A DNA stretch of 42,892 nucleotides, taken from IMG/VR virus record IMGVR_UViG_3300009506_000070, positions 1 to 42,892 of that record. One strand, 5' to 3'. The position numbers and the translations under genes were made by a program. Source of the DNA: a virus. Positions 1,752-42,331 of the stretch are shown here, piece after piece (position 1 is the first letter of the stretch; every line of letters begins with the position of its first letter). Under the pieces are notes generated by a model. That model searched no databases. It had not been told where the DNA came from and saw only the letters and a list, made by a program, of their open reading frames with translations.

Positions 1752-1780
1752 TTGCAACTCGTACAAAAATGCGCTAAAGT
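1752..1780 (+). promoter_or_regulatory. possible sigma-70 promoter before the small terminase
   Basis: TTGCAA (1752-1757), a 17-base spacer and TAAAGT (1775-1780) fit a moderate sigma-70 promoter. It lies 33 bases before the small terminase start and would drive the packaging/head operon. The assignment rests on hexamer similarity and position only. Confidence 0.35.
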
Positions 1781-1812
1781 AACCGTACTTATTGACGAAC
1801 GAGGGGGTACGA

Positions 1813-2340
1813 ATGGCTAACCTGGACGCAATCGAGCGGGATTGGAAAGCGGAAAAACTGAGCAACGTGGCTATTGGCAAAAAGCACGGTGTCAGCGAAG
1901 CCTACGTGCGCAAAATGGCGAAGAAACTCGGTTGGACACGCGGCGCTCCCGTCACCCCGCCCCGCCCCGAGCCGCCCCCCCGCGAGTATCTGCGCCGCCC
2001 ATCCGCCGACACGTCTGGCATGACCAATGCGGAACTCACGCAAGACCTGACGCGCCGGATGCTCGATGAACTCGACACCATCACGGCGTACATTGGCGAG
2101 TTGGAGGCGTTGATTGAGTGTGAGACGGCCAACGACCGCGACGACCGCCGCCGCGCCGCCATGATGAAGGCGGTCAGCCTGCCGGTACGCTCCAACACGC
2201 TTAAATTGCTGCTGGCGGCCCAGGCCGAGGCGGATGGGGAGGGCAAGAAGGGCAAGAAAGAGAAGCAGTTGGAGGCGGCAAAGGCGGCTGGATCGGGCAA
2301 ATTCAAGGCGAGTGCGCCGCCGCTCAAGGTGGTGGGCTAA
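1813..2340 (+). CDS. terS: phage terminase small subunit
   Basis: A 175-residue protein. ATG 1813 follows GAGGGGG at a good distance and is chosen over an upstream in-frame TTG at 1792. The N-terminus (residues ~1-40, ending in SEAYVRKMAKKLGWTRG) is a helix-turn-helix used by small terminases to recognise the packaging site. It is followed by a Pro/Arg-rich linker, a helical oligomerisation segment and a basic Lys/Ala-rich C-terminus (~145-165). It lies two genes before the large terminase. It would bind phage DNA and load the large subunit for genome packaging. The family assignment rests on domain layout and context. Confidence 0.8.
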   Translation: MANLDAIERDWKAEKLSNVAIGKKHGVSEAYVRKMAKKLGWTRGAPVTPPRPEPPPREYLRRPSADTSGMTNAELTQDLTRRMLDELDTITAYIGELEALIECETANDRDDRRRAAMMKAVSLPVRSNTLKLLLAAQAEADGEGKKGKKEKQLEAAKAAGSGKFKASAPPLKVVG

Positions 2341-2516
2341 TGTGGCGCATGCGGTACTCAGTGCGTGATAACGCTACGCGAGACGACGGGGTGAGAATGT
2401 TCCGTATCGGTTTTTGCTTTGGGTATTGGCCGTGCCTGAAAGCTCCGTTTGTCCAAATTGGACTTGGAATGAAGACACTTGATTTGTGGGTTGGTCTTCC
2501 GTCATACAAGATATGA
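2340..2516 (+). CDS. small conserved-type protein between the terminase genes
   Basis: A 58-residue frame that begins with an ATG overlapping the small terminase stop (TAATG). It ends in a TGA overlapping the large terminase ATG (ATGA). This perfect tiling on both sides strongly supports a translated gene and also fixes the large terminase start at 2513. The protein is rich in aromatic residues (for example FCFGYWPCLKAPFVQIG) and has no recognised domain. Its function is unknown. Confidence 0.7.
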   Translation: MWRMRYSVRDNATRDDGVRMFRIGFCFGYWPCLKAPFVQIGLGMKTLDLWVGLPSYKI

Positions 2517-4195
2517 CCGCCCGCCCCGTCTGGACAACTTCATGTATGGATTGGGCCGACCGCATCCGGCGCGGCGACTCGATCATTCCGCCGCCGATAT
2601 TTCCCGAGCAAGCGGAAGAGGCTCTCGCAATCTTCAAGGCGCTTCGCATTGTGGACGCTCCTGGTAGCCCAACAATGGGAGAAGCGTGCGCCGAGTGGGT
2701 GTTTGACATCGTGCGCAGTGTGTTTGGCTCCTACGACGCGGAGACCGGTCGCCGGCTCATCCAGGAATGGTTCATCTGCATACCCAAAAAATCGAGCAAA
2801 AGTACCATCGCGGCGGGCGTTATGATGACCGCGCTGATCTTGAATTGGCGTGAATCTGCTGAATTTGCCGTGCTGGCCCCCACTGTGGAGGTCGCCAACA
2901 ACGCATACGCCCCGGCGCGGGATATGGTGCGTAAGGACGATGACCTCGATGCCATAATGCTCGTCCAGACGCACGAGAAAAAGATCACCCACCGCGAGAA
3001 AAATGCCATACTCAAGGTTTTGGCGGCAGACAGCAACACGGTGGGCGGCAAAAAGAGCGTCGGCACGTTGATCGACGAGTTGCATCTGTTCGGCAAGATA
3101 ATCAGCGCGGAAAACATGTTCCGTGAAGCCCTTGGCGGCCTTGCCGCGCGCCCAGAGGGGTTCGTCATATACCTGACAACGCAGAGTGATGAGCCACCTG
3201 CCGGCGTATTCCGGCAAAAGTTGCAATACGCTCGCGACGTGCGCGACGGCATTGTGCTCGACAACGGATTTCAGCCGATAATTTACGAACACCCGCCCGA
3301 GATGGTCAAGAGTGGCGAGCACTTGCTGCTTGAGAACATGTGGATGACCAACCCAAATCTCGGGTATTCAGTGGATCAGGCATTTTTGGAACGGGAATAC
3401 CGCAAAGCCGAGAATGCCGGGCCTGAGTCGTTGCGGGGATTTTTAGCCAAACATGCCAACTGCGAGATTGGACTCAATCTCCGTTCTGATCGCTGGGCGG
3501 GGGCCGACTATTGGGAACAAGCCGCCCTGCCCGACCTCACGCTTGAGGCTCTGCTAGACCGCTGCGAAGTTGTGGACGTAGGCATCGACGGCGGTGGCTT
3601 GGACGACTTACTCGGTTTGGCTCTGGTTGGGCGTGATCGCGTAAGTGGGCGCAAACTTCATTGGGGTCACGCATGGGCGCACCCGTCGGTTTTGGAGCGC
3701 CGTAAGGGCGAAGCCCCGCGCTTCCGCGATTTTGCCAAGCAAGGAGACCTGACGCTGGTGGGGCAAATCGGTGATGACGTAGCGGAAGTTGTCGAGATTG
3801 TCCGTCGCGTCGATGCGGCAGGCGTGCTCGACAAAATTGGCGTTGACCCATACGGCATCGGGGCGATACTTGATGCGCTCATGGGGGTCGGCATCACCGA
3901 GGATAAGATTGTTGGCATCTCCCAGGGCTGGAAGATGGCGGGGGCCATCAAAACTGCCGAACGGTGGCTTGCCGAGGGTCAATTCTGCCACGGTGGAAGC
4001 GAGATGATGGCCTGGTGCGTCGGTAACGCCAAGGTCGAGCCGAAGGGCAATGCGGTCAGCATCACCAAACAAGCCAGTGGCTTCGCCAAGATCGACCCGC
4101 TGATGGCGCTGTTGAACGCAGTGTCGCTGATGGCGCTCAATCCTGCCTCTGAAAAATCATTTTGGGATAAGGAACTTGACGCGGCAACTGCGTAA
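2513..4195 (+). CDS. terL: phage terminase large subunit (HK97 type)
   Basis: A 560-residue packaging motor. The N-terminal ATPase has a Walker A-type loop PKKSSKST (residues ~91-98) and a Walker B LIDELHLF (~186-193; the Asp-Glu pair binds Mg-ATP). The C-terminal RNase H-like nuclease begins with VGIDGGGLDD (Asp ~359), with a further acidic residue in GVDPYGIG (Asp ~445). The length is normal for this family. ATG 2513 is chosen because it overlaps the stop of the preceding small gene; an upstream in-frame GTG (2486) is the alternative. It would cut concatemeric DNA and drive it into the prohead through the portal. Confidence 0.95.
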   Translation: MTARPVWTTSCMDWADRIRRGDSIIPPPIFPEQAEEALAIFKALRIVDAPGSPTMGEACAEWVFDIVRSVFGSYDAETGRRLIQEWFICIPKKSSKSTIAAGVMMTALILNWRESAEFAVLAPTVEVANNAYAPARDMVRKDDDLDAIMLVQTHEKKITHREKNAILKVLAADSNTVGGKKSVGTLIDELHLFGKIISAENMFREALGGLAARPEGFVIYLTTQSDEPPAGVFRQKLQYARDVRDGIVLDNGFQPIIYEHPPEMVKSGEHLLLENMWMTNPNLGYSVDQAFLEREYRKAENAGPESLRGFLAKHANCEIGLNLRSDRWAGADYWEQAALPDLTLEALLDRCEVVDVGIDGGGLDDLLGLALVGRDRVSGRKLHWGHAWAHPSVLERRKGEAPRFRDFAKQGDLTLVGQIGDDVAEVVEIVRRVDAAGVLDKIGVDPYGIGAILDALMGVGITEDKIVGISQGWKMAGAIKTAERWLAEGQFCHGGSEMMAWCVGNAKVEPKGNAVSITKQASGFAKIDPLMALLNAVSLMALNPASEKSFWDKELDAATA

Positions 4196-4237
4196 TGCTA
4201 ACCTTCCGCGCATTATAATCTGCCCGAGGTTTGGACA

Positions 4238-4384
4238 ATGCGCCATTTGCCTGACGTTTTAGCCGTTATTGGCGCAGCAATTATCGTGTACGGGGTAGCG
4301 ATGATACACGTTCCAACTGCGGTCATCTTGGCGGGCGGGTTCGTCATATTTGCGGCCTACACCATCCACAGGGCGCGTCAATGA
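4238..4384 (+). CDS. small two-segment membrane protein before the portal
   Basis: A 48-residue protein whose stop TGA overlaps the portal ATG (ATGA). Two hydrophobic stretches (residues ~6-24 and ~27-43, for example VLAVIGAAIIVYGVAMI) are joined by a short HVPT turn and followed by a basic tail (HRARQ). Small membrane proteins between the large terminase and the portal are common in HK97-type phages, but their role is unknown. A TATAAT hexamer at 4214-4219 precedes it without a good -35 box. Confidence 0.75.
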   Translation: MRHLPDVLAVIGAAIIVYGVAMIHVPTAVILAGGFVIFAAYTIHRARQ

Positions 4385-7532: not shown

Positions 7533-7562
7533 ATGCCGCATCTTTTAACGGAGGTGCGGCAT
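7533..7562 (+). promoter_or_regulatory. hairpin that masks the ribosome site of the HNH gene
   Basis: ATGCCGCA (7533-7540) and TGCGGCAT (7555-7562) are a perfect 8-base inverted repeat with a 14-base loop. The Shine-Dalgarno GGAGG is in the loop, and the first two bases of the start codon (7561-7563) are in the stem. In mRNA this would restrict ribosome access, so translation of the inserted nuclease may be kept low when read through from the strongly expressed capsid gene. Confidence 0.6.
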
Positions 7563-8106
7563 GTCTATTTGTAAAGTTGAGAATTGCGGACGGGATTCAC
7601 GAAAGCTAGGTTTGTGTGAGCGGCATTACAACCGTCAACGCAGAAACGGAAGTCCTACCGCTGGCGGCCCAATGAAGGCATCCCCAAATACACTGGGAGC
7701 GTGCAAAGTCGATGGGTGCGGCAACAAGGCAATATCTCTCGGATACTGTAGAAAACATCACGCCAAATTCAAAAAGTACGGTGACGCATCTGGCGGATAT
7801 GAACAGGACGGTCGATCTAAAGATTGGCGCGTCAACAAGCTCGGGTACGTCGAAAAATTTGACCGGGCCAGCCCACACGCAGCCAAAAACGGCTTCGTAT
7901 TCCAACACCGCCAAGTCATGGCTGAACACATAGGTCGCCCGCTCCGAAAGGATGAGAATGTCCATCATAAAAACGGCGACCGCGCCGACAACAGGCTCGA
8001 AAACCTAGAATTATGGACGAAATCGCAACCTGCCGGGCAACGTGTGGCGGATAAAGTCAAATGGGCCAAGGAGATACTTGCAGAGTATGGCAATCTTGAC
8101 GTATAG
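7561..8106 (+). CDS. HNH homing-type endonuclease inserted after the capsid gene
   Basis: A 181-residue protein. The N-terminus has two copies of a Cys/His zinc motif: CKVENCGRDSRKLGLCERHY (residues ~4-23) and CKVDGCGNKAISLGYCRKHH (~48-67). The C-terminal HNH_3-type nuclease contains FQHRQVMAEHIGRPL and VHHKNGDRADNRLENLELW (~138-156), which supplies the catalytic His-His and the Asn residues. Such nucleases are free-standing homing endonucleases that spread into related phages. The position between capsid and the next structural gene, without 4-base overlaps, suggests insertion. GGAGGT precedes the ATG but lies in a hairpin. Confidence 0.88.
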   Translation: MSICKVENCGRDSRKLGLCERHYNRQRRNGSPTAGGPMKASPNTLGACKVDGCGNKAISLGYCRKHHAKFKKYGDASGGYEQDGRSKDWRVNKLGYVEKFDRASPHAAKNGFVFQHRQVMAEHIGRPLRKDENVHHKNGDRADNRLENLELWTKSQPAGQRVADKVKWAKEILAEYGNLDV

Positions 8107-17400: not shown

Positions 17401-17553
17401 TTGCCAACCCCAGCTGCAGCGCCAGTGCGCAGGATTGACTTATACCTGCGCGGAGACGACATATACAGTGCGAAATCTGTGCGTGAACAACTCGTGCCGG
17501 CGCTGAATGACGCGCTGGATGACGGCGTAATTATTAATGTGAGGCCACTGTGA
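14398..17553 (+). CDS. tail tape measure protein
   Basis: A 1051-residue protein, the longest structural gene. The N-terminus (residues ~1-240) is the tape-measure domain: SVGILADTLRRTVDSYTKLD, QLRLSTKSQEQYNKALSDIR and GANRLGGEEFRAVMEAMPNI. Hydrophobic segments occur near residues ~280-305 and ~515-533 (GWIGMALFGVWTVVDFLTG). Long Ala/Gln/Glu-rich coiled coils fill the rest, and the C-terminus is Ala/Pro/Gly-rich. At about 0.15 nm per residue it predicts a tail near 155-160 nm. Bases ~16050-16550 are noticeably AT-richer than the surroundings, suggesting a segment of different origin. The ATGA overlap couples it to the chaperone. Confidence 0.92.
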   Translation: MIAGVLEIQLMANMARLSDDMRRAERVVTGHMSKVESSVASAKRAMSQLGMGLSVGILADTLRRTVDSYTKLDAQLRLSTKSQEQYNKALSDIRSISSVAQSDITATTMLYTRLLNVMDGTGVSQEKLNLVTQTVSFGLKAYGATAQEAASASLQLSQAMGANRLGGEEFRAVMEAMPNIMKVLANSMGVPLGELRALSIAGKITAEEMVKAWGNPEIAAQFRKLAENAQTITGAWTVARNELTLLVGEFAKSSGATGSMIAGFKGLAEIIKFLADNMGVLLNALYAYITVVGGKFIIGLIAARAAQANLNAAHAEALAMNVAEEQAKQKALVSTMAANRASIAAATAKLAEADAVGALTVAHYNETRAAESNIAVKQAERALSIQNLAAIGKESAAVNAVIASKGAAVSNALKAERAAILERRALAKIELAQIDASIAAYKAQAAANVQAEQAMTAAMAQRTAMQTKLLALEEAQIIAEKQLAASTAGVAAAQKLHAAGTVSVIGRIKGLVGRAGWIGMALFGVWTVVDFLTGMQSVADGAKKTVDEMSNMTLAQMQLLRNAKALEIALMKQSMFSGFNENEIRIAEQALRAIDQQITKTLEGMKKGDEESTKFLGNMDNDSRYVLKQYEKLQKQLKDNDITQADFNAKVRDLYAHVYPNLISSSKELAKARKDEFAVWKDMSGIADRLEAEVLSDNLRLTETQKVEQKWKQLIKGRTVTLKEELEYQRALEAARAADQIKRAADTEKAIIKQRKALQAQQAELAGTQRETAGIVGQNALFGLTGEARLAAELEQAKKAEDMRYAAQLEAQARRIQTMIDENTWEQDTATEQAAIMEEMERQHQERLTQIEQEGITKRQAQQTGLLKFATLIRQIDFKASKEKLADDVNNALKAGAEITAEFAQRSRTMFELNKAFSISSAIIDTLVAIGKIQREFPGPVGWAMGAVQAGLGALRVAQIANTKFGGGGVGAVSAGVSAAAGAGVPSMATSAPIAAPVTPALPTPAAAPVRRIDLYLRGDDIYSAKSVREQLVPALNDALDDGVIINVRPL

Positions 17554-18998
17554 CAACAATCGTTTGGGATAACCGGCTCGCAGACGGCACACCGGTAGCC
17601 AGCACCACCGCATCAGGTGCGGTGATTAATCTGGCTGATTTCCGCCCGTATACGAGTTGGGCTCCGACGACTCTCCCAGCCACTGTTACTATCGATTGTG
17701 GGACGCCGCAAAGCGCCGATACGCTTGGCATTTTTAATCACGATTTGTTTGATGGGCGCTACGGTATTGAAGTCCACGGATCGGTTGACAATTTTGTGGC
17801 GCATGACGCTTTGGTAAAGACATACACGCCCGCCGGCAACGACCCAATCATAACGACGTTTACTAGCGCGTCGTACCGCTACTGGCGATTGCATGTTGTC
17901 GATTGGGTATCTCTTGGACAGATTTCCCGTAATTGGCGCGGAATGACAACGCTCGGGTCTGATGTATATGCTTGCGTACATGGTGGGGATATATACAAAC
18001 AGACAGGAGGCGTAGGAGTTTTCGCGGCTCTTGGAGAGACCTCACGTAATTGGCGCGGAATGACAACGCTCGGGTCTGATGTATATGCTTGCGTATACGG
18101 AGGCGACATATACAAACAGACCGGAGGCACAGGTGCTTTTGCCGCTCTTGGAGAGACAACTCGTAGTTGGATTGGAATGACAACGCTCGGGTCCGACGTG
18201 TATGCTTGCGTATATGGTGGGGATATATACAAACAGACAGGAGGCGTAGGAGTTTTCGCGGCTCTTGGAGAGACCTCACGTAATTGGTTCAGCATGACGA
18301 CGCTCGGGTCTGACGTATATGCTTGCGTAGACGGAGGCGACATATACAAACAGACAGGTGGCACAGGTGCTTTTGCCGCTCTTGGAGAGACCTCACGTAG
18401 ATGGATCGGTATGACAACGCTCGGATCCGACGTATATGCTTGCGTATATAGTGGGGGTGATATATACAAGCAGACCGGAGGCACAGGTGCTTTTGCCGCT
18501 CTTGGAGAGGCCTCACGTAATTGGGCCGGCATGACAACGCTCGGGTCCGACGTATACGCTTGTGTGTACGGGGGTGACATATACAGAAGTGAGACGGCTC
18601 CATCTATAACAACAGACGCCCCAACCCTCACCGTTGTAGCACTCGGCGTTGGTCTGCCATTTGAAATAGGTGTCGGCGTCGGCTTTGACCCGTTGGCGCG
18701 CACCGTCCACGGGCAGACCAATATCTCGGAACAAGGTCTGCCACTTGGCAAATCCATCCTGTTTGAACAGTGGTCGCAGAGCATTAGTGTCCCGGTGAGT
18801 AATACCTGGTTGCGCAACACTTTCCTCCCCGCATGGAAGTCTCATCTGCGCGGCAATCCGTTTTTGTTCGCCTTTGACCCAACAACGTATCCTGATGAAA
18901 TTTATTTGGTGGAAGCAGACGGCAGTATCACTACTGCGCCAATTTCAGGCGAATACTCAACTCTCAATATGACGATAAGAGGGGTCGCGTTACCATGA
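17550..18998 (+). CDS. tail protein with discoidin-like domain and inserted beta-propeller
   Basis: A 482-residue protein with a GTG start in a GTGA overlap. Residues ~1-120 have a jelly-roll/discoidin-like pattern (TVTIDCGTPQSADTLGIFNH, ending YRYWRLHVV). Residues ~129-347 are six blades of a ~39-residue repeat (W-x2-MTTLGSDVYACV, then GGDIYKQTGG). The C-terminal ~130 residues return to tail-protein-like sequence (SILFEQWSQSISVPVSNTWL, FLFAFDPTTYPDEIYLV). Its place after the tape measure suggests a distal tail or tail-tip component. Without the propeller it would be about 260 residues. The propeller could bind a host surface sugar or protein; this is inference. Confidence 0.75.
   Translation: MTTIVWDNRLADGTPVASTTASGAVINLADFRPYTSWAPTTLPATVTIDCGTPQSADTLGIFNHDLFDGRYGIEVHGSVDNFVAHDALVKTYTPAGNDPIITTFTSASYRYWRLHVVDWVSLGQISRNWRGMTTLGSDVYACVHGGDIYKQTGGVGVFAALGETSRNWRGMTTLGSDVYACVYGGDIYKQTGGTGAFAALGETTRSWIGMTTLGSDVYACVYGGDIYKQTGGVGVFAALGETSRNWFSMTTLGSDVYACVDGGDIYKQTGGTGAFAALGETSRRWIGMTTLGSDVYACVYSGGDIYKQTGGTGAFAALGEASRNWAGMTTLGSDVYACVYGGDIYRSETAPSITTDAPTLTVVALGVGLPFEIGVGVGFDPLARTVHGQTNISEQGLPLGKSILFEQWSQSISVPVSNTWLRNTFLPAWKSHLRGNPFLFAFDPTTYPDEIYLVEADGSITTAPISGEYSTLNMTIRGVALP
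17934..18591 (+). repeat. 117-base tandem repeats encoding six propeller blades
   Basis: Five full copies and one partial copy, spaced 117 bases (39 codons); the fifth carries a 3-base insertion (SGGD). Blades 1 and 3 share GGVGVF, while blades 2, 4 and 5 share GGTGAF. This suggests that a two-blade unit was duplicated. The sequence WVSLGQISRN before blade 1 matches the end of each repeat (FAALGETSRN), so it can complete blade 6 and close the ring. Near-identity of the DNA implies recent amplification or gene conversion. Confidence 0.9.
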
Positions 18999-30881: not shown

Positions 30882-31148
30882 ATGCGTCAATCTGGTAGAA
30901 CAACCAAGCAGATGTTGGATGCCCCGTGTAATGCCGTTTTCATATGGTGCAATAACGAGACTTTTTACGCAAAATGTTTGGCGAGCGACATAGGGCGTGG
31001 CGACTTGGAAATCGTGCAGCCGAACTGGCTGAGAGATGGTTGGAGGGGCCGCACTTTTTCTGGGATCATCGTTGACCACGCGGTATGTTTGAGTATTGAT
31101 GAAAACGACGCATTGGACAAAGCGATGGCGAGGGTGCGTAATGTGTAA
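30882..31148 (+). CDS. small hypothetical protein, first of the plus early operon
   Basis: An 88-residue protein with a strong GAGGAGGTG ribosome site. It begins MRQSGRTTKQMLDAPCNAVF. It is beta-rich with three Cys residues but no clear zinc pattern. Phage proteins that begin with a similar GRTTKQM segment exist, but their role is unknown. It overlaps the next small gene. Confidence 0.7.
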   Translation: MRQSGRTTKQMLDAPCNAVFIWCNNETFYAKCLASDIGRGDLEIVQPNWLRDGWRGRTFSGIIVDHAVCLSIDENDALDKAMARVRNV

Positions 31149-31236
31149 CCACTATTTCATCCCGGCCAAGTGCGCCAAGACAGGCAAGCGATACCGCAAA
31201 TGTGTCAAATGTGGGTTTATAACTGAGGAGGTGTGA
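31141..31236 (+). CDS. 31-residue zinc-ribbon-like microprotein
   Basis: The ATG lies within the end of the preceding gene, and the stop ends one base before the next ATG. The protein has CNH near the start, a Cys at residue 11 and CVKC at 21-24, a spacing that could bind zinc. It is lysine/arginine-rich. The gene also contains the GAGGAGGTG ribosome site of the next gene. It is too short for domain assignment; the tiling supports translation. Confidence 0.55.
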   Translation: MCNHYFIPAKCAKTGKRYRKCVKCGFITEEV

Positions 31237-31237
31237 G

Positions 31238-31435
31238 ATGTTGGAGCAAGTGATAGTCGTGACCAAAATAAAAGAGGCAGAGGGGTTGAGTAGCGATTGT
31301 GGCGGGCACGGCATGGAATGGACGTGTCCTGACTGCAACGAAACAATCCGGTACGCGCCGATGATGTGGTGGAGATTGGAGTGTTCATGCCGTGAATGGG
31401 ATTTGAAAATCGAAGCAATTGGCACACGTAAATGA
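31238..31435 (+). CDS. small zinc-binding protein
   Basis: A 65-residue protein with GAGGAGGTG before the ATG. Residues WTCPDCNETIRYAPMMWWRL followed by ECSC form a C-x2-C plus C-x-C pattern typical of a zinc ribbon; a further Cys-Gly-Gly-His lies upstream. It may bind nucleic acid or protein. Its stop overlaps the helicase ATG (ATGA), so it is co-translated with the helicase. Confidence 0.65.
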   Translation: MLEQVIVVTKIKEAEGLSSDCGGHGMEWTCPDCNETIRYAPMMWWRLECSCREWDLKIEAIGTRK

Positions 31436-34056
31436 CCATTCAACTCCGCCCCTTCCAATCCGACCTATCCGCCCGTATCTCCGAAGCGTGGCGTGACGGC
31501 GCGCGTGATGTGCTCGGTGTGCTGCCCTGCGGTGCCGGTAAATCCGTGGTCGCCGCGCACTTTCTCGCGCATGAGCCGCACACTGCCGTCTTTGTCGCGC
31601 ATCGCTCAGAACTTGTGTCCGGCGAGAGCTTGGCGCTTGCACGTAACGGTGTGCGCCATCGTGTCATTGGTCAACCGGCATTGCGGCGCGAGTGCTCCAG
31701 GCGTCACGTTGCCGAGGGGCTGTACGATCACGTTGACCACCGAGCGCGAGTGGCGATAGCGAGTGTTGACACGTTGGTCGGTTTGCCCGACAACGACCCA
31801 TTGCGCGCCGAGTGTCGATTAGTCGTAACCGACGAGTGCTTCCCGGCAGGCACACTTGTCGATGGCGCTTCGATTGAAACGCTGCGGATCGGCGACACGG
31901 TTACGGCGTTCGATGAGACGACCGGCGAGTTCGCAAAGCGTCGTATTACCGCGCTACACCGCAATCCAATGCCTAAACACATGATGCGTATTGAAACGGC
32001 AGCGCATCATGTGTTACACTGCACACCAGGGCATCCGTTCTGGACGAAGCGCGGGTGGAAACTGGCTCACGAGCTAGACATTGACGACGAGGTGTACTGT
32101 GGCGAAAATAGTTCGACAAGTAGTGGCGTGCATAGAGTGCGGGAATCCTGCGACATTGGAGAAAAAATATCAACGCGACATGTACGCAGAGGATGGGCGG
32201 GCATTTTGTGGCAAAAAGTGTTCGGGGGCATATCGCGGGCGAATTTCGTCGGTGACGATGGCAAGAACAAATCGAAAGTACGCTTCGGAACGAATGAAAA
32301 AGAACAATCCGATGCGCGACGAAGCTGCGCGGAAAAAGATGTCAGAGACATTGCGTGCGATCAAACATGCTCCGAAAATACGAGGAGGGAATGGGAAAGA
32401 ACCTGCCGTGGCCGAACAAGTTTTAGCATTACTGTTCTCGGAGCACGGATTCATTCCGCAGTACGCGGTGAAAACTGGCGCGAAGCGTGGAAACGGTGTT
32501 TATCCCCAGTGCTACAAACCGGACTCGGCGAATCCAGAACTGAAGATCGCGCTGGAAGCCGACGGGCCGAGCCACTATTCTCTTACTCGTCGCGCGCAGG
32601 ACGCGAAGAAGGACGCCTTTTTAGTTGGTGCAGGTTGGACAGTGTTGAGATTTACCAACGAGCAGATATTGAACAACCCGACAAGTGTGTTGGAGACGGT
32701 TTTGTTTACAATATCGAAGTTGAAGAGTTGCACACCTATGTCGCAAACGGCGTAGTTGTTCACAACTGCCATCACCTCCTGCGCGAAAATAAGTGGGGCC
32801 GCGCGCTCGATATGTTCCCCAATGCACGCGGCCTTGGCCTATCCGCCACACCGTATCGTGCGGACGGCAAGGGGCTTGGTCGGCATGCGGATGGGGTGTT
32901 TGACGTGATGGTTGAAGGCCCGAATGCCCGCGAGATCGAGCTAATGGGGTTCCTCGCCCCGCATGTCATCTATGCCCCGCCATCCGACCTCGACCTGTCG
33001 CATGTGCCAGTTGCAGCATCCGGGGACTACTCCCCAAAGCCCCTTGCCGAAGCAACGCGCAAATCTCACATCCTGGGCGACGTGGTAGACCATTATCGCA
33101 GGCTGGCCGACGGATTGCTCGGCATGACGTTCTGCGTTGACGTGGAGAGTTGCGTCGCGGTCGCCGCAGCGTTCCGTGCCGCTGGCGTGCCTGCCGAGGT
33201 GGTCACAGGTAAGACACCGCCCGACGCGAGGAATGCCATATTCCGCAAATTCCGCAGCCGCCAGATCCTGCAACTCGTATCGTGCGAAATCGCTGGCGAA
33301 GGCTTCGACCTGCCCGACGTGGAGGTCATCTCGCTGGCCCGCGCGTCGGAGTCGTTCACACTGGCAACCCAGCAAATCGGTCGGGTAAAGCGCACGTTGC
33401 CCGGTAAGACCAAGGGCATCGTCATCGACCACGTTGGCAATACGACGCGCCATTGTCAAGCCAAGCGATGCCCGCAGACTGGCGAGTGGTACATTGCGGT
33501 CGGTGAACGCGAATGGACGCTTGACCGGCGTGAGCGACGCAGCGCCAGCAACAAGCCAACCGTAGCTATCACGACATGCCCGTCGTGTCTGAGAAGCTAC
33601 GAGCGCGTCATAGGGCGCAAATGCCCGTATTGTGCACATGAGGCACAACCGGCCGGGCGCAGCGCACCGGAGCAAGTGGATGGAGTGTTGGCAGAGCTTG
33701 ACCCCGCGGCACTCGCGGCGATGCAGCAGGCTATCGCGCATGTAGACGGTGCGCCGGCAATACCGTGGGGCGCGACTGCGGCTGTCCAGGGCGCAGTGAT
33801 GAAACGGCATCGGGAGCGACAAGAGGCGCAGGCTGCGTTGCGGCAGGCTATAGCGGTGTGGGCGGGCGGTCGGGCGCAGGGGCAGGACGCTGAGACGGTA
33901 GCGCGGTTGCAGCGGGAATTTTGGCTGTCATACGGGGTGGATGTAGCGACGGCGCAGGCGTTGGGGCGAACTGAGGCACTGGCACTGTTGGAACGTATTG
34001 ACAACACGGTCAACTTGCCTCACAATGTGTCACATCATACGACTGAGAGGAAATGA
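31432..34056 (+). CDS. SF2 DEAD/DEAH-type helicase interrupted by an intein
   Basis: An 874-residue precursor. The helicase (extein) parts are residues 1-135 and 446-874, giving about 564 residues after splicing. Motifs: FQSDLSARI, Walker A LPCGAGKS (~31-38), the DE of the DECH box at 134-135 with CHH at 446-448, motif III LGLSATPYR, and motif VI TQQIGRVKR. A C-terminal zinc finger, CPSCLRSYERVIGRKCPYC, follows. It resembles phage UvsW/RecG-like SF2 helicases. It would unwind DNA or remodel branched intermediates in replication and repair. Without splicing the ATP-hydrolysis motif is split, so activity should depend on removal of the intein. Confidence 0.9.
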   Translation: MTIQLRPFQSDLSARISEAWRDGARDVLGVLPCGAGKSVVAAHFLAHEPHTAVFVAHRSELVSGESLALARNGVRHRVIGQPALRRECSRRHVAEGLYDHVDHRARVAIASVDTLVGLPDNDPLRAECRLVVTDECFPAGTLVDGASIETLRIGDTVTAFDETTGEFAKRRITALHRNPMPKHMMRIETAAHHVLHCTPGHPFWTKRGWKLAHELDIDDEVYCGENSSTSSGVHRVRESCDIGEKISTRHVRRGWAGILWQKVFGGISRANFVGDDGKNKSKVRFGTNEKEQSDARRSCAEKDVRDIACDQTCSENTRREWERTCRGRTSFSITVLGARIHSAVRGENWREAWKRCLSPVLQTGLGESRTEDRAGSRRAEPLFSYSSRAGREEGRLFSWCRLDSVEIYQRADIEQPDKCVGDGFVYNIEVEELHTYVANGVVVHNCHHLLRENKWGRALDMFPNARGLGLSATPYRADGKGLGRHADGVFDVMVEGPNAREIELMGFLAPHVIYAPPSDLDLSHVPVAASGDYSPKPLAEATRKSHILGDVVDHYRRLADGLLGMTFCVDVESCVAVAAAFRAAGVPAEVVTGKTPPDARNAIFRKFRSRQILQLVSCEIAGEGFDLPDVEVISLARASESFTLATQQIGRVKRTLPGKTKGIVIDHVGNTTRHCQAKRCPQTGEWYIAVGEREWTLDRRERRSASNKPTVAITTCPSCLRSYERVIGRKCPYCAHEAQPAGRSAPEQVDGVLAELDPAALAAMQQAIAHVDGAPAIPWGATAAVQGAVMKRHRERQEAQAALRQAIAVWAGGRAQGQDAETVARLQREFWLSYGVDVATAQALGRTEALALLERIDNTVNLPHNVSHHTTERK
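31837..32766 (+). other. intein in the helicase DECH motif (310 residues)
   Basis: The intein starts with CFPAGTLVDG (block A, Cys 1), continues to HHVLHCTPGHPFWTKRG (block B with T-x2-H), and ends with VYNIEVEELHTYVANGVVVH then Asn (blocks F and G). It is followed by Cys as the +1 residue. All catalytic residues for class 1 splicing are present. Insertion between DE and CH of the Walker B box is a typical conserved site. The middle part of this frame (about residues 90-300 of the intein) matches no known fold; it overlaps a homing endonuclease read in another frame (32099-32755). Confidence 0.88.
32099..32755 (+). CDS. EDxHD (Vsr/DUF559-like) homing endonuclease nested out of frame in the intein
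   Basis: A 218-residue protein in the +1 frame relative to the helicase. GTG 32099 with GAGGT upstream is a plausible start; the frame opens at TTG 32081. Domains: a zinc ribbon (CIECGNPATLEKKY then FCGKKC), a NUMOD3-like motif (ASERMKKNNPMRDEAARKKM), and a Vsr/DUF559-type nuclease (LKIALEADGPSHYSLTRRAQ, DAKKDAFLVGAGWTVLRFTN) with the Glu, Asp, His and Asp of the EDxHD family. It lies wholly inside the intein, stops 11 bases before its end, and shares bases with intein block F. It would cut intein-less alleles and promote homing. It could be expressed from its own start or by frameshifting. Confidence 0.78.
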   Translation: MAKIVRQVVACIECGNPATLEKKYQRDMYAEDGRAFCGKKCSGAYRGRISSVTMARTNRKYASERMKKNNPMRDEAARKKMSETLRAIKHAPKIRGGNGKEPAVAEQVLALLFSEHGFIPQYAVKTGAKRGNGVYPQCYKPDSANPELKIALEADGPSHYSLTRRAQDAKKDAFLVGAGWTVLRFTNEQILNNPTSVLETVLFTISKLKSCTPMSQTA

Positions 34057-34057
34057 A

Positions 34058-34443
<386 letters not shown>

Positions 34444-34447
<4 letters not shown>

Positions 34448-39847: not shown

Positions 39848-39907
39848 AAAGTGCGAACGGGTTTTTGTGCGAGTTGCAATAAAAAGTGCGAACGGGTTTT
39901 TGTGCGA
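39838..39907 (+). repeat. perfect 35-base tandem duplication with a partial third copy
   Basis: Two exact copies (39838-39872 and 39873-39907) contain GTTGCAATAAAAAGTGCGAA and an ACGGGTTTTTG element. A partial third copy (ACGGGTTTTTGCGCGAGTTG) follows. The first copy includes the end of the zinc-finger gene. It looks like recent slippage or unequal recombination. It fills the gap before the repeat-rich HNH gene. Confidence 0.9.
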
Positions 39908-39960
39908 ACGGGTTTTTGCGCGAGTTGAAAAAAAAATGCGAGTTGGAAAAAAGTGCGAGC

Positions 39961-40764
39961 ATGAAACCTTGCAGAAAATGCGGATCAACAGAACGCTACC
40001 CAAGTGGAAGGTGCAAGCAGTGCGCACTATCAGCAAACCGCGAGCGGGCAAAAGAAAAACCGGATGCGGTAAAAGCCACGCGGGATGCTTGGCGCAAAAA
40101 GAACGCCGCGCGCATTTACCAATTGAACAGGGCGTGGATTGAGCGAACTGGATGGGTTGCGCCGAAGCCGCCGAAGCCACCGAAGCCGCCGAAGCCGCCG
40201 AAGCCGCCGAAGCCACCGAAGCCGCCGAAGCCGCCGAAGCCGCCGAAGCCGCCGAAGCCACCGAAGCCACCGAAGCCGCCGAAGCCGCCGATAACGGAGC
40301 GCCCATGCAGAAAATGCGGGGCTATTGATAGATACACCAATGGCTTATGCAAACCGTGCTCAATCGCTGCACACCGTGAATACAACGAAAAGAACGCCGA
40401 TAAGGTAAAAGCGAACCGCGATAGGTACATGGCGGAAAACGCCGATAAAATCCGCAGGCAGCGTCAGAACAGGCGCGCAAGGCTTGCGGGTGCTGGTGTA
40501 TTGTCGGAAGGTATATGCGAGGCGCTGCATGTCATACAGGCGGGCCGTTGCGCCTGTTGCGGTAAGCCGCTAGGAACTGATTACGATTTAGACCACATCA
40601 TGCCGCTTGCCCTGGGCGGGCTTAACGTGGATGAAAATATGCAGCTATTAACAGCGCGCTGCAATGGGCGCAAGCTGGCGAAACATCCCGAGGATTACGC
40701 AAAAGCGCAGGGATTCTGCTATTGGCCGCCGCGCGATTGGGCAAGTGTTACACGCGCACGATAA
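39961..40764 (+). CDS. HNH endonuclease with duplicated zinc ribbons and a PKP linker
   Basis: A 267-residue protein. ATG 39961 is preferred because it directly precedes the first zinc ribbon; the 25 extra residues from 39886 come from repeat DNA. Ribbon 1 is PCRKCGSTERYPSGRCKQC and ribbon 2 PCRKCGAIDRYTNGLCKPC, each followed by similar basic helices, so one unit was duplicated. Between them is a Pro-Lys-Pro tract of 43 residues. The HNH domain follows: CACCGKPLGTDYDLDHIMPL, ALGGLNVDENMQLLTARCNG. It is probably a homing-type nuclease. The ribosome site is weak. Confidence 0.82.
   Translation: MKPCRKCGSTERYPSGRCKQCALSANRERAKEKPDAVKATRDAWRKKNAARIYQLNRAWIERTGWVAPKPPKPPKPPKPPKPPKPPKPPKPPKPPKPPKPPKPPKPPKPPITERPCRKCGAIDRYTNGLCKPCSIAAHREYNEKNADKVKANRDRYMAENADKIRRQRQNRRARLAGAGVLSEGICEALHVIQAGRCACCGKPLGTDYDLDHIMPLALGGLNVDENMQLLTARCNGRKLAKHPEDYAKAQGFCYWPPRDWASVTRAR
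40162..40290 (+). repeat. 9-base repeat encoding (PKP)14-P
   Basis: Fourteen copies of a CCGAAGCCG-type unit with occasional CCA for CCG, all in frame. The encoded Pro-Lys-Pro chain should be an extended, positively charged polyproline-type linker. Such microsatellites change length by slippage. The other-frame reading gives Gly/Phe repeats and is a shadow. Confidence 0.92.

Positions 40765-41761: not shown

Positions 41762-42331
<570 letters not shown>

Follow-up and report, generated by a model that had tools for sequence, protein, structure and literature searches.

A phage helicase intein overlapped in the +1 reading frame by the gene of a probable Vsr-like homing endonuclease

Introduction

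How can one stretch of phage DNA serve both as the interior of an intein and, one reading frame away, as the gene for a homing endonuclease? This question is raised by a helicase gene in the window analyzed here, a whole virus record of 42,892 bases. In a preliminary description of this DNA, a 310-residue class 1 intein was placed in the DECH box of the helicase, a nuclease was described within it in the +1 frame, true dual coding was proposed, and two compensating sequence errors were named as an alternative. The results presented below favor, with a probability of roughly 0.86, a mobile class 1 intein whose homing-endonuclease gene is an independent +1 overlapping gene.

Results

The helicase open reading frame contains no stop along its whole length and is composed of the following parts.

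31432-34056, plus strand: host open reading frame, an SF2 (ResIII/DEXH) phage helicase with an intein, 874 residues (Pfam ResIII and Helicase_C; PHROG 16, DNA helicase, 4e-69)
31432-31836, plus strand: N-extein, ending in ...VVTDE (Walker B), where intein-less homologues read on ...DEAHHVL/DECHHVL
31837-32766, plus strand: class 1 intein of 310 residues (C1 ... TxxH ... HN, +1 Cys), from splicing residues, Pfam and alignment
31837-32109, plus strand: N-terminal part of the Hint domain, intein residues 1-91 (predicted fold, pLDDT >90)
32110-32610, plus strand: filler, intein residues 92-258, stop-free, unconstrained and predicted to be disordered (pLDDT ~35)
32611-32755, plus strand: dual-coded stretch, C-terminal Hint strands and blocks F-G together with the C-terminal third of the nuclease (host-frame conservation z 4.5-12, against 0-1.6 upstream; both folds predicted)
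32767-34056, plus strand: C-extein, first residues CHHLLREN (splice junction)

The intein cuts the Walker B motif of the helicase as DE/CHH. It begins with Cys1, contains block B (CTPGHPFW) and block F/G (GFVYNIEV...VVVHN), and is followed by Cys+1. The class 1 splicing residues C1, T63, H66, H309 and N310 are invariant in the intein alignment, again with a Cys at +1, and the intein alone matches Pfam Intein_splicing (PF14890) with 39.8 bits (cut-off 35.8). Judged by these residues, by the Hint domain and by the exact empty sites described below, 31837-32766 is a class 1 intein, in agreement with the preliminary description. A self-splicing RNA intron was considered and rejected, as no Rfam match was found at E<=1 in 31000-34100 and the host frame keeps the residues used in protein splicing. 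The fractured layout of split inteins is absent from the window helicase, which is continuous from 31432 to 34056. The canonical layout, with the nuclease in the same frame and part of the excised polypeptide, is also not found in the window, where the nuclease lies at +1 and comprises the following features.

32099-32755, plus strand: overlapping nuclease gene in the +1 frame, 218 residues and a stop codon at 32753-32755 (DUF559 match; AlphaFold2 pLDDT 90)
32089-32094, plus strand: Shine-Dalgarno-like GAGGTG, 4 nt before GTG 32099, doubling as the codons for intein Glu85-Val86 (sequence)
32129-32221, plus strand: zinc ribbon, nuclease Cys 11, 14, 37 and 41 ((nearly) invariant in nuclease alignments)
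32513-32659, plus strand: DUF559/Vsr-like catalytic core with D142, E153, D155, H159 and D168 invariant (profile and alignment)

The nuclease product matches DUF559 with an E value of 7e-12 (45.7 bits, cut-off 20.6), as do 23/23 members of one nuclease alignment, and its AlphaFold2 model has a mean pLDDT of 90. All catalytic and zinc residues are intact in the window nuclease. These results bear out the zinc ribbon and the Vsr-like core of the preliminary description, and its placement of the nuclease in the +1 frame at 32099-32755 is upheld by the open reading frame, the domain match and the frame relation repeated in relatives. The NUMOD3-like motif did not hold up: no Pfam NUMOD3 match was found in the nuclease at E<=1, and the segment is a conserved, unnamed RMKKNNPM. 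Searches of PHROGs with the nuclease gave weak matches to unknown families only. Stop to stop, the nuclease frame is open from 32078, and TTG 32081 and GTG 32099 are the start candidates; GTG 32099 appears better supported than TTG 32081, by virtue of its Shine-Dalgarno sequence.

Several other features were observed elsewhere in the window. Two similar genes (MKLTTTLALLRQN...) lie in opposite orientation at 34060-34447 (plus strand) and 41762-42331 (minus strand), near the phage genome end. HNH-like open reading frames are located at 7561-8106 and, with a long KPP tandem repeat, at 39886-40764, and a structural-region open reading frame at 17550-18998 contains repeated ALGETSRNWxGMTTLGSDVYACVYGGDIYKQTGG units.

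To collect relatives, the nuclease sequence was used as a query against viral contigs, genomes and phage records, and each locus was classified by profiles of both Hint ends and of the nuclease. After removal of redundancy at 90% nuclease identity, 127 loci were retained; counts among them are samples from best-80 lists and not a census. In 98 of the 127, the nuclease is shifted by +1 relative to the Hint ends, and the host frame reads through without a stop. An in-frame nuclease is present in three (the DUF559 inteins L044, L047 and L048), the remaining frame is used in none (0/127), and four have Hint ends at +1 (one end at least) but with stops. No Hint is seen in the rest, most of which are short or free-standing matches. 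When a Hint-N-only query was used, without the nuclease, a +1 nuclease was found in 65 of the 80 best loci, the contigs of which are partly shared with the first set. The same arrangement occurs in isolates of Pseudomonas (MR14), Vibrio (CP-T1, 1.194.O, K391, 159E43-1b and 103E44.1) and Corynebacterium (phi673), and more than 20 near-identical isolates share it with Vibrio 1.194.O. In every one of the isolate records, the helicase-frame open reading frame is annotated alone, and the hundreds of phage genomes in which the overlapping arrangement was found carry it as plain helicases. As sampled here, the arrangement is a widespread class and no one-off. Among the actinophages searched, the +1 family is nearly absent, with a strong match in phi673 only. 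Separately, weak nuclease-like stretches were seen in Mycobacterium cluster P beside or partly overlapping methylase genes, outside inteins as annotated.

A tree of 107 nucleases was built by a quick method and has many weak forks. In it, a 98-supported branch sets the in-frame forms apart, and the fractured L019 and L021 and the free-standing L073, L122 and L151 nest within the +1 clade. The fractured helicases (L019, 3424-5361; L021, 3295-5514) have the split-intein layout, in which the N-half open reading frame, that of the nuclease and a C-half one that starts at an ATG of its own overlap one another in the register of the intact +1 inteins. This overlap and shared register would be expected from an accumulation of stops in the filler, and the fractured forms look derived from the intact +1 state. 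In L073 (2989-5048) and L122 (3358-5626), a nuclease relative lies directly upstream of an intein-less helicase and overlaps its start.

Selection on the two frames was assessed by shuffling synonymous codons within each nuclease sequence. For the window, 7.0 intein-frame stops are expected from the nuclease protein and codon usage and 0 are seen (0/1000 shuffles); the open intein frame therefore exceeds chance. Across the loci, 3-14 host-frame stops are expected per locus by the same shuffling, and none is seen except for one in L034. Stops in the third frame are as frequent as expected, and no stop avoidance is observed in the in-frame and fractured controls. Amino-acid constraint in the host frame was compared with a null conditioned on the nuclease protein and on the absence of stops. 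In the middle of the intein, the host-frame similarity is at this null (mean z 0.1-0.2 at 30-50% nuclease identity; columns z 0-1.6). The conservation reaches z 4.5-12 at intein residues ~255-293, the part in which the C-terminal third of the nuclease is overlapped by Hint strands and block F. In close pairs, a comparison that pools some short alignments, substitutions that are silent in the nuclease and change the host frame number 707 (389 expected), and those that are silent in the host frame and change the nuclease number 239 (424 expected). By these measures, the nuclease protein is under strong purifying selection.

In the AlphaFold2 model of the intein, the Hint ends have pLDDT >90 and residues 92-258 have ~35. 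This low value and the null constraint together identify the middle as stop-free filler. A second functional domain in the host-frame middle was considered and rejected on the same two observations and the absence of a Pfam match there, which also agrees with the earlier remark that the intein frame stays open over the overlap without a known domain. The proposal of true dual coding thus stands for the last ~48 codons, where both frames are constrained and two folded products are predicted to share coding, and there only; over the rest of the overlap, the intein frame is merely stop-free. The comparison of constraint in both frames that had been suggested gave selection on the nuclease protein, and on the intein frame at its end, not in its middle.

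Evidence for mobility comes from the insertion site and from empty alleles. The insertion follows the DE of Walker B/DEXH in 83/98 loci, and a Cys directly follows the intein in 96/97; among the hosts are helicases of the SF2 and SNF2 types and clamp-loader-type AAA+ ATPases. The empty allele of VchM-138 (1923 bp) is exactly 1059 bp shorter than that of CP-T1 (2982 bp), and that of 1.024.O (1635 bp) is exactly 1068 bp shorter than that of 1.194.O (2703 bp), differences that equal the intein lengths exactly. Empty sites read mostly DEAHH and in some cases DECHH. Between 1.194.O and K391, identity is 97.4% in the intein, 93.4% in the N-extein and 82.2% in the C-extein, declining away from the insert. 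Homing is therefore indicated, both by the exactness of the empty alleles and by the higher identity of the intein than of its flanks; the gradient has the pattern left by homing with co-conversion and indicates a probable recent transfer in Vibrio phages. Mini-inteins without a nuclease occupy the same Walker B site in L063 and L184, and L127 has one stop in the nuclease frame with the intein frame open. These three loci fit nuclease loss, with L127 as a putative decaying nuclease in a kept intein. The Walker B mini-intein of L063 (Vibrio phage 13VV501A helicase, 1771-4272) is accompanied by a second mini-intein in the P-loop of the same gene.

With regard to expression, a Shine-Dalgarno sequence of at least 5 nt is present 4-10 nt before a start codon in 36% of loci, versus 6.9% of control windows, and one of at least 6 nt in 14% versus 2%. 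An ATG before the zinc ribbon is likewise enriched (67% versus 37%). These enrichments favor separate translation of the nuclease by internal initiation; as translation in the host frame meets no stop, reinitiation after termination is excluded. A Shine-Dalgarno sequence of at least 4 nt was detected in only about half of the loci, and the nuclease may therefore be initiated weakly, from other signals or with the help of frameshifting.

Further inteins with nucleases in other frames came from the Hint query. In the phage intein of L260 (3501-4493), the +2 frame encodes zinc ribbons and an HNH_3 nuclease (E 4e-14), a relation kept in 9 related HNH loci. DUF559/MTES_1575/Vsr-like nucleases lie antisense and in register inside open inteins (L243 3612-4301, L252 3732-4568 and L265 3103-4152, minus strand), and HTH plus MTES_1575-like proteins, also antisense in register, span nearly the whole intein (L251 3531-4559 and L264 1083-1835, minus strand). 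The antisense register is found in 43/43 HTH-type relatives and in 6 zinc-ribbon-type loci. Apart from marginal matches, the sense frames of these inteins match Hint/intein families only. The antisense genes are without TTA, CTA and TCA codons (joint P ~1e-11 under local codon usage). In each family, the nuclease third positions are most variable in the middle; for the HTH-type antisense loci, the ends show the host-frame pattern.

Discussion

Each alternative to an independent overlapping gene agrees with part of these results. Two compensating indels, as assembly errors or recent mutations, that displaced an ordinary in-frame nuclease could account for a single contig, and in-frame DUF559 inteins exist (L044, L047 and L048). 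However, 98 non-redundant loci, together with isolates sequenced independently in different laboratories, have exactly the same +1 relation, which excludes the sequencing-error alternative; as host-frame stops are avoided and the in-frame forms lie across a 98-supported branch, displacement by indels in any form has a negligible probability, and the conserved frame relation already refutes it. The nuclease of L127, with its stop in an open host frame, and the mini-inteins L063 and L184 would suit an unused, decaying passenger in an intein that persists as a neutral spliced element. This explanation is very unlikely in view of the intact catalytic and zinc residues in the window, the strong purifying selection on the nuclease frame and the recent transfer among Vibrio phages.

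Programmed +1 frameshifting at the N-terminal Hint end, stimulated by the Shine-Dalgarno-like site, would instead yield an intein-N/nuclease fusion. The nuclease frame is exactly +1 and GAGGTG lies just upstream of the overlap, but the enrichment of Shine-Dalgarno sequences at start-codon spacing and of ATG codons speaks against such a shift, and antisense versions of the same design are impossible by frameshift; it is regarded as unlikely. Long in-register antisense open reading frames can arise passively in GC-rich DNA, although this origin is disfavored here by the codon-position pattern and by independent domain matches. It is fairly likely that phage inteins repeatedly hide a nuclease as an overlapping gene (+1 Vsr-like, +2 HNH, or antisense in-register Vsr-like with zinc ribbons or HTH) over a stop-free middle that is spliced away. 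This general and largely unannotated architecture would uncouple nuclease expression from host-protein synthesis and, once stops arise, give fractured split-intein genes.

For the window element, the independent overlapping gene suggests the following mechanism. Ribosomes that translate the helicase would pass through the nuclease gene without meeting a stop and make from it an unstructured filler loop, located where inteins usually carry their nuclease; the Hint domain would fold around this filler and splice the intein out. Other ribosomes would start at the internal Shine-Dalgarno/GTG 32099 and produce a free 218-residue zinc-ribbon Vsr/EDxHD-like nuclease. This enzyme would cut intein-less Walker B (DEXH) sites, into which repair would copy the intein.

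Such an arrangement would break the textbook picture of the intein nuclease as a fused domain. It would represent long overlapping genes with divided labor, one frame selected for function and the other for the absence of stops alone. Annotation pipelines miss the overlapping nucleases because the host open reading frame is called instead. The class may be a source of naturally split inteins and Walker B-targeting nucleases, and it offers a possible intermediate on the way to fractured genes. The balance of a homing element between nuclease dose and host-gene expression also becomes directly testable.

The window intein shares with canonical large inteins (in-frame LAGLIDADG/HNH) the Hint fold, the class 1 residues, a nuclease between blocks B and F, a conserved ATPase motif as the insertion point and the homing pattern. 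It differs in that the nuclease is a separate +1 gene, and the intein polypeptide carries meaningless filler in its place. Dassa et al. in 2009 reportedly described fractured genes with split inteins and a Vsr/EDxHD-type nuclease gene between the intein halves. That nuclease type and position are shared, and the register matches L019 and L021; in the window, in contrast, host and intein form one continuous open reading frame that the nuclease overlaps. The passage citing that work in PMC3229294 credits it with reporting split inteins in fractured genes and a new family of endonucleases. The Vsr-like EDxHD enzyme I-Bth0305I (PDB ID: 3R3P) may resemble the window nuclease in catalytic-core fold and sequence (profile E 0.011, fold E 8e-3); E153 and D168 align, and D155 and H159 are without an identical partner. 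The window nuclease differs by its zinc ribbon and NNPM helices and by being encoded inside an intein. Foldseek similarity to solved EDxHD/Vsr enzymes is modest, with best E values of 2.4e-3 to 8e-3 among mixed matches.

The nested layout had been called unfamiliar in the preliminary description. For true inteins this holds in the literature searched, which contained no out-of-frame nuclease in one; a preprint on non-canonical actinobacteriophage inteins (10.1101/2025.01.02.630785) lay outside the search and may hold a prior mention. Beyond true inteins there is a close precedent without a splicing domain, the nearest in that literature: ShiLan, an out-of-frame HNH endonuclease in a mycobacteriophage DNA methylase, which its authors class as neither intein nor intron (PMC11855218). 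The two have in common a stop-free insertion, a nuclease in another frame and a GTG start (PMC11855218). While ShiLan has an HNH nuclease and no detectable splicing domain (PMC11855218), the window combines a DUF559 nuclease with a complete intein that is predicted to remove the filler.
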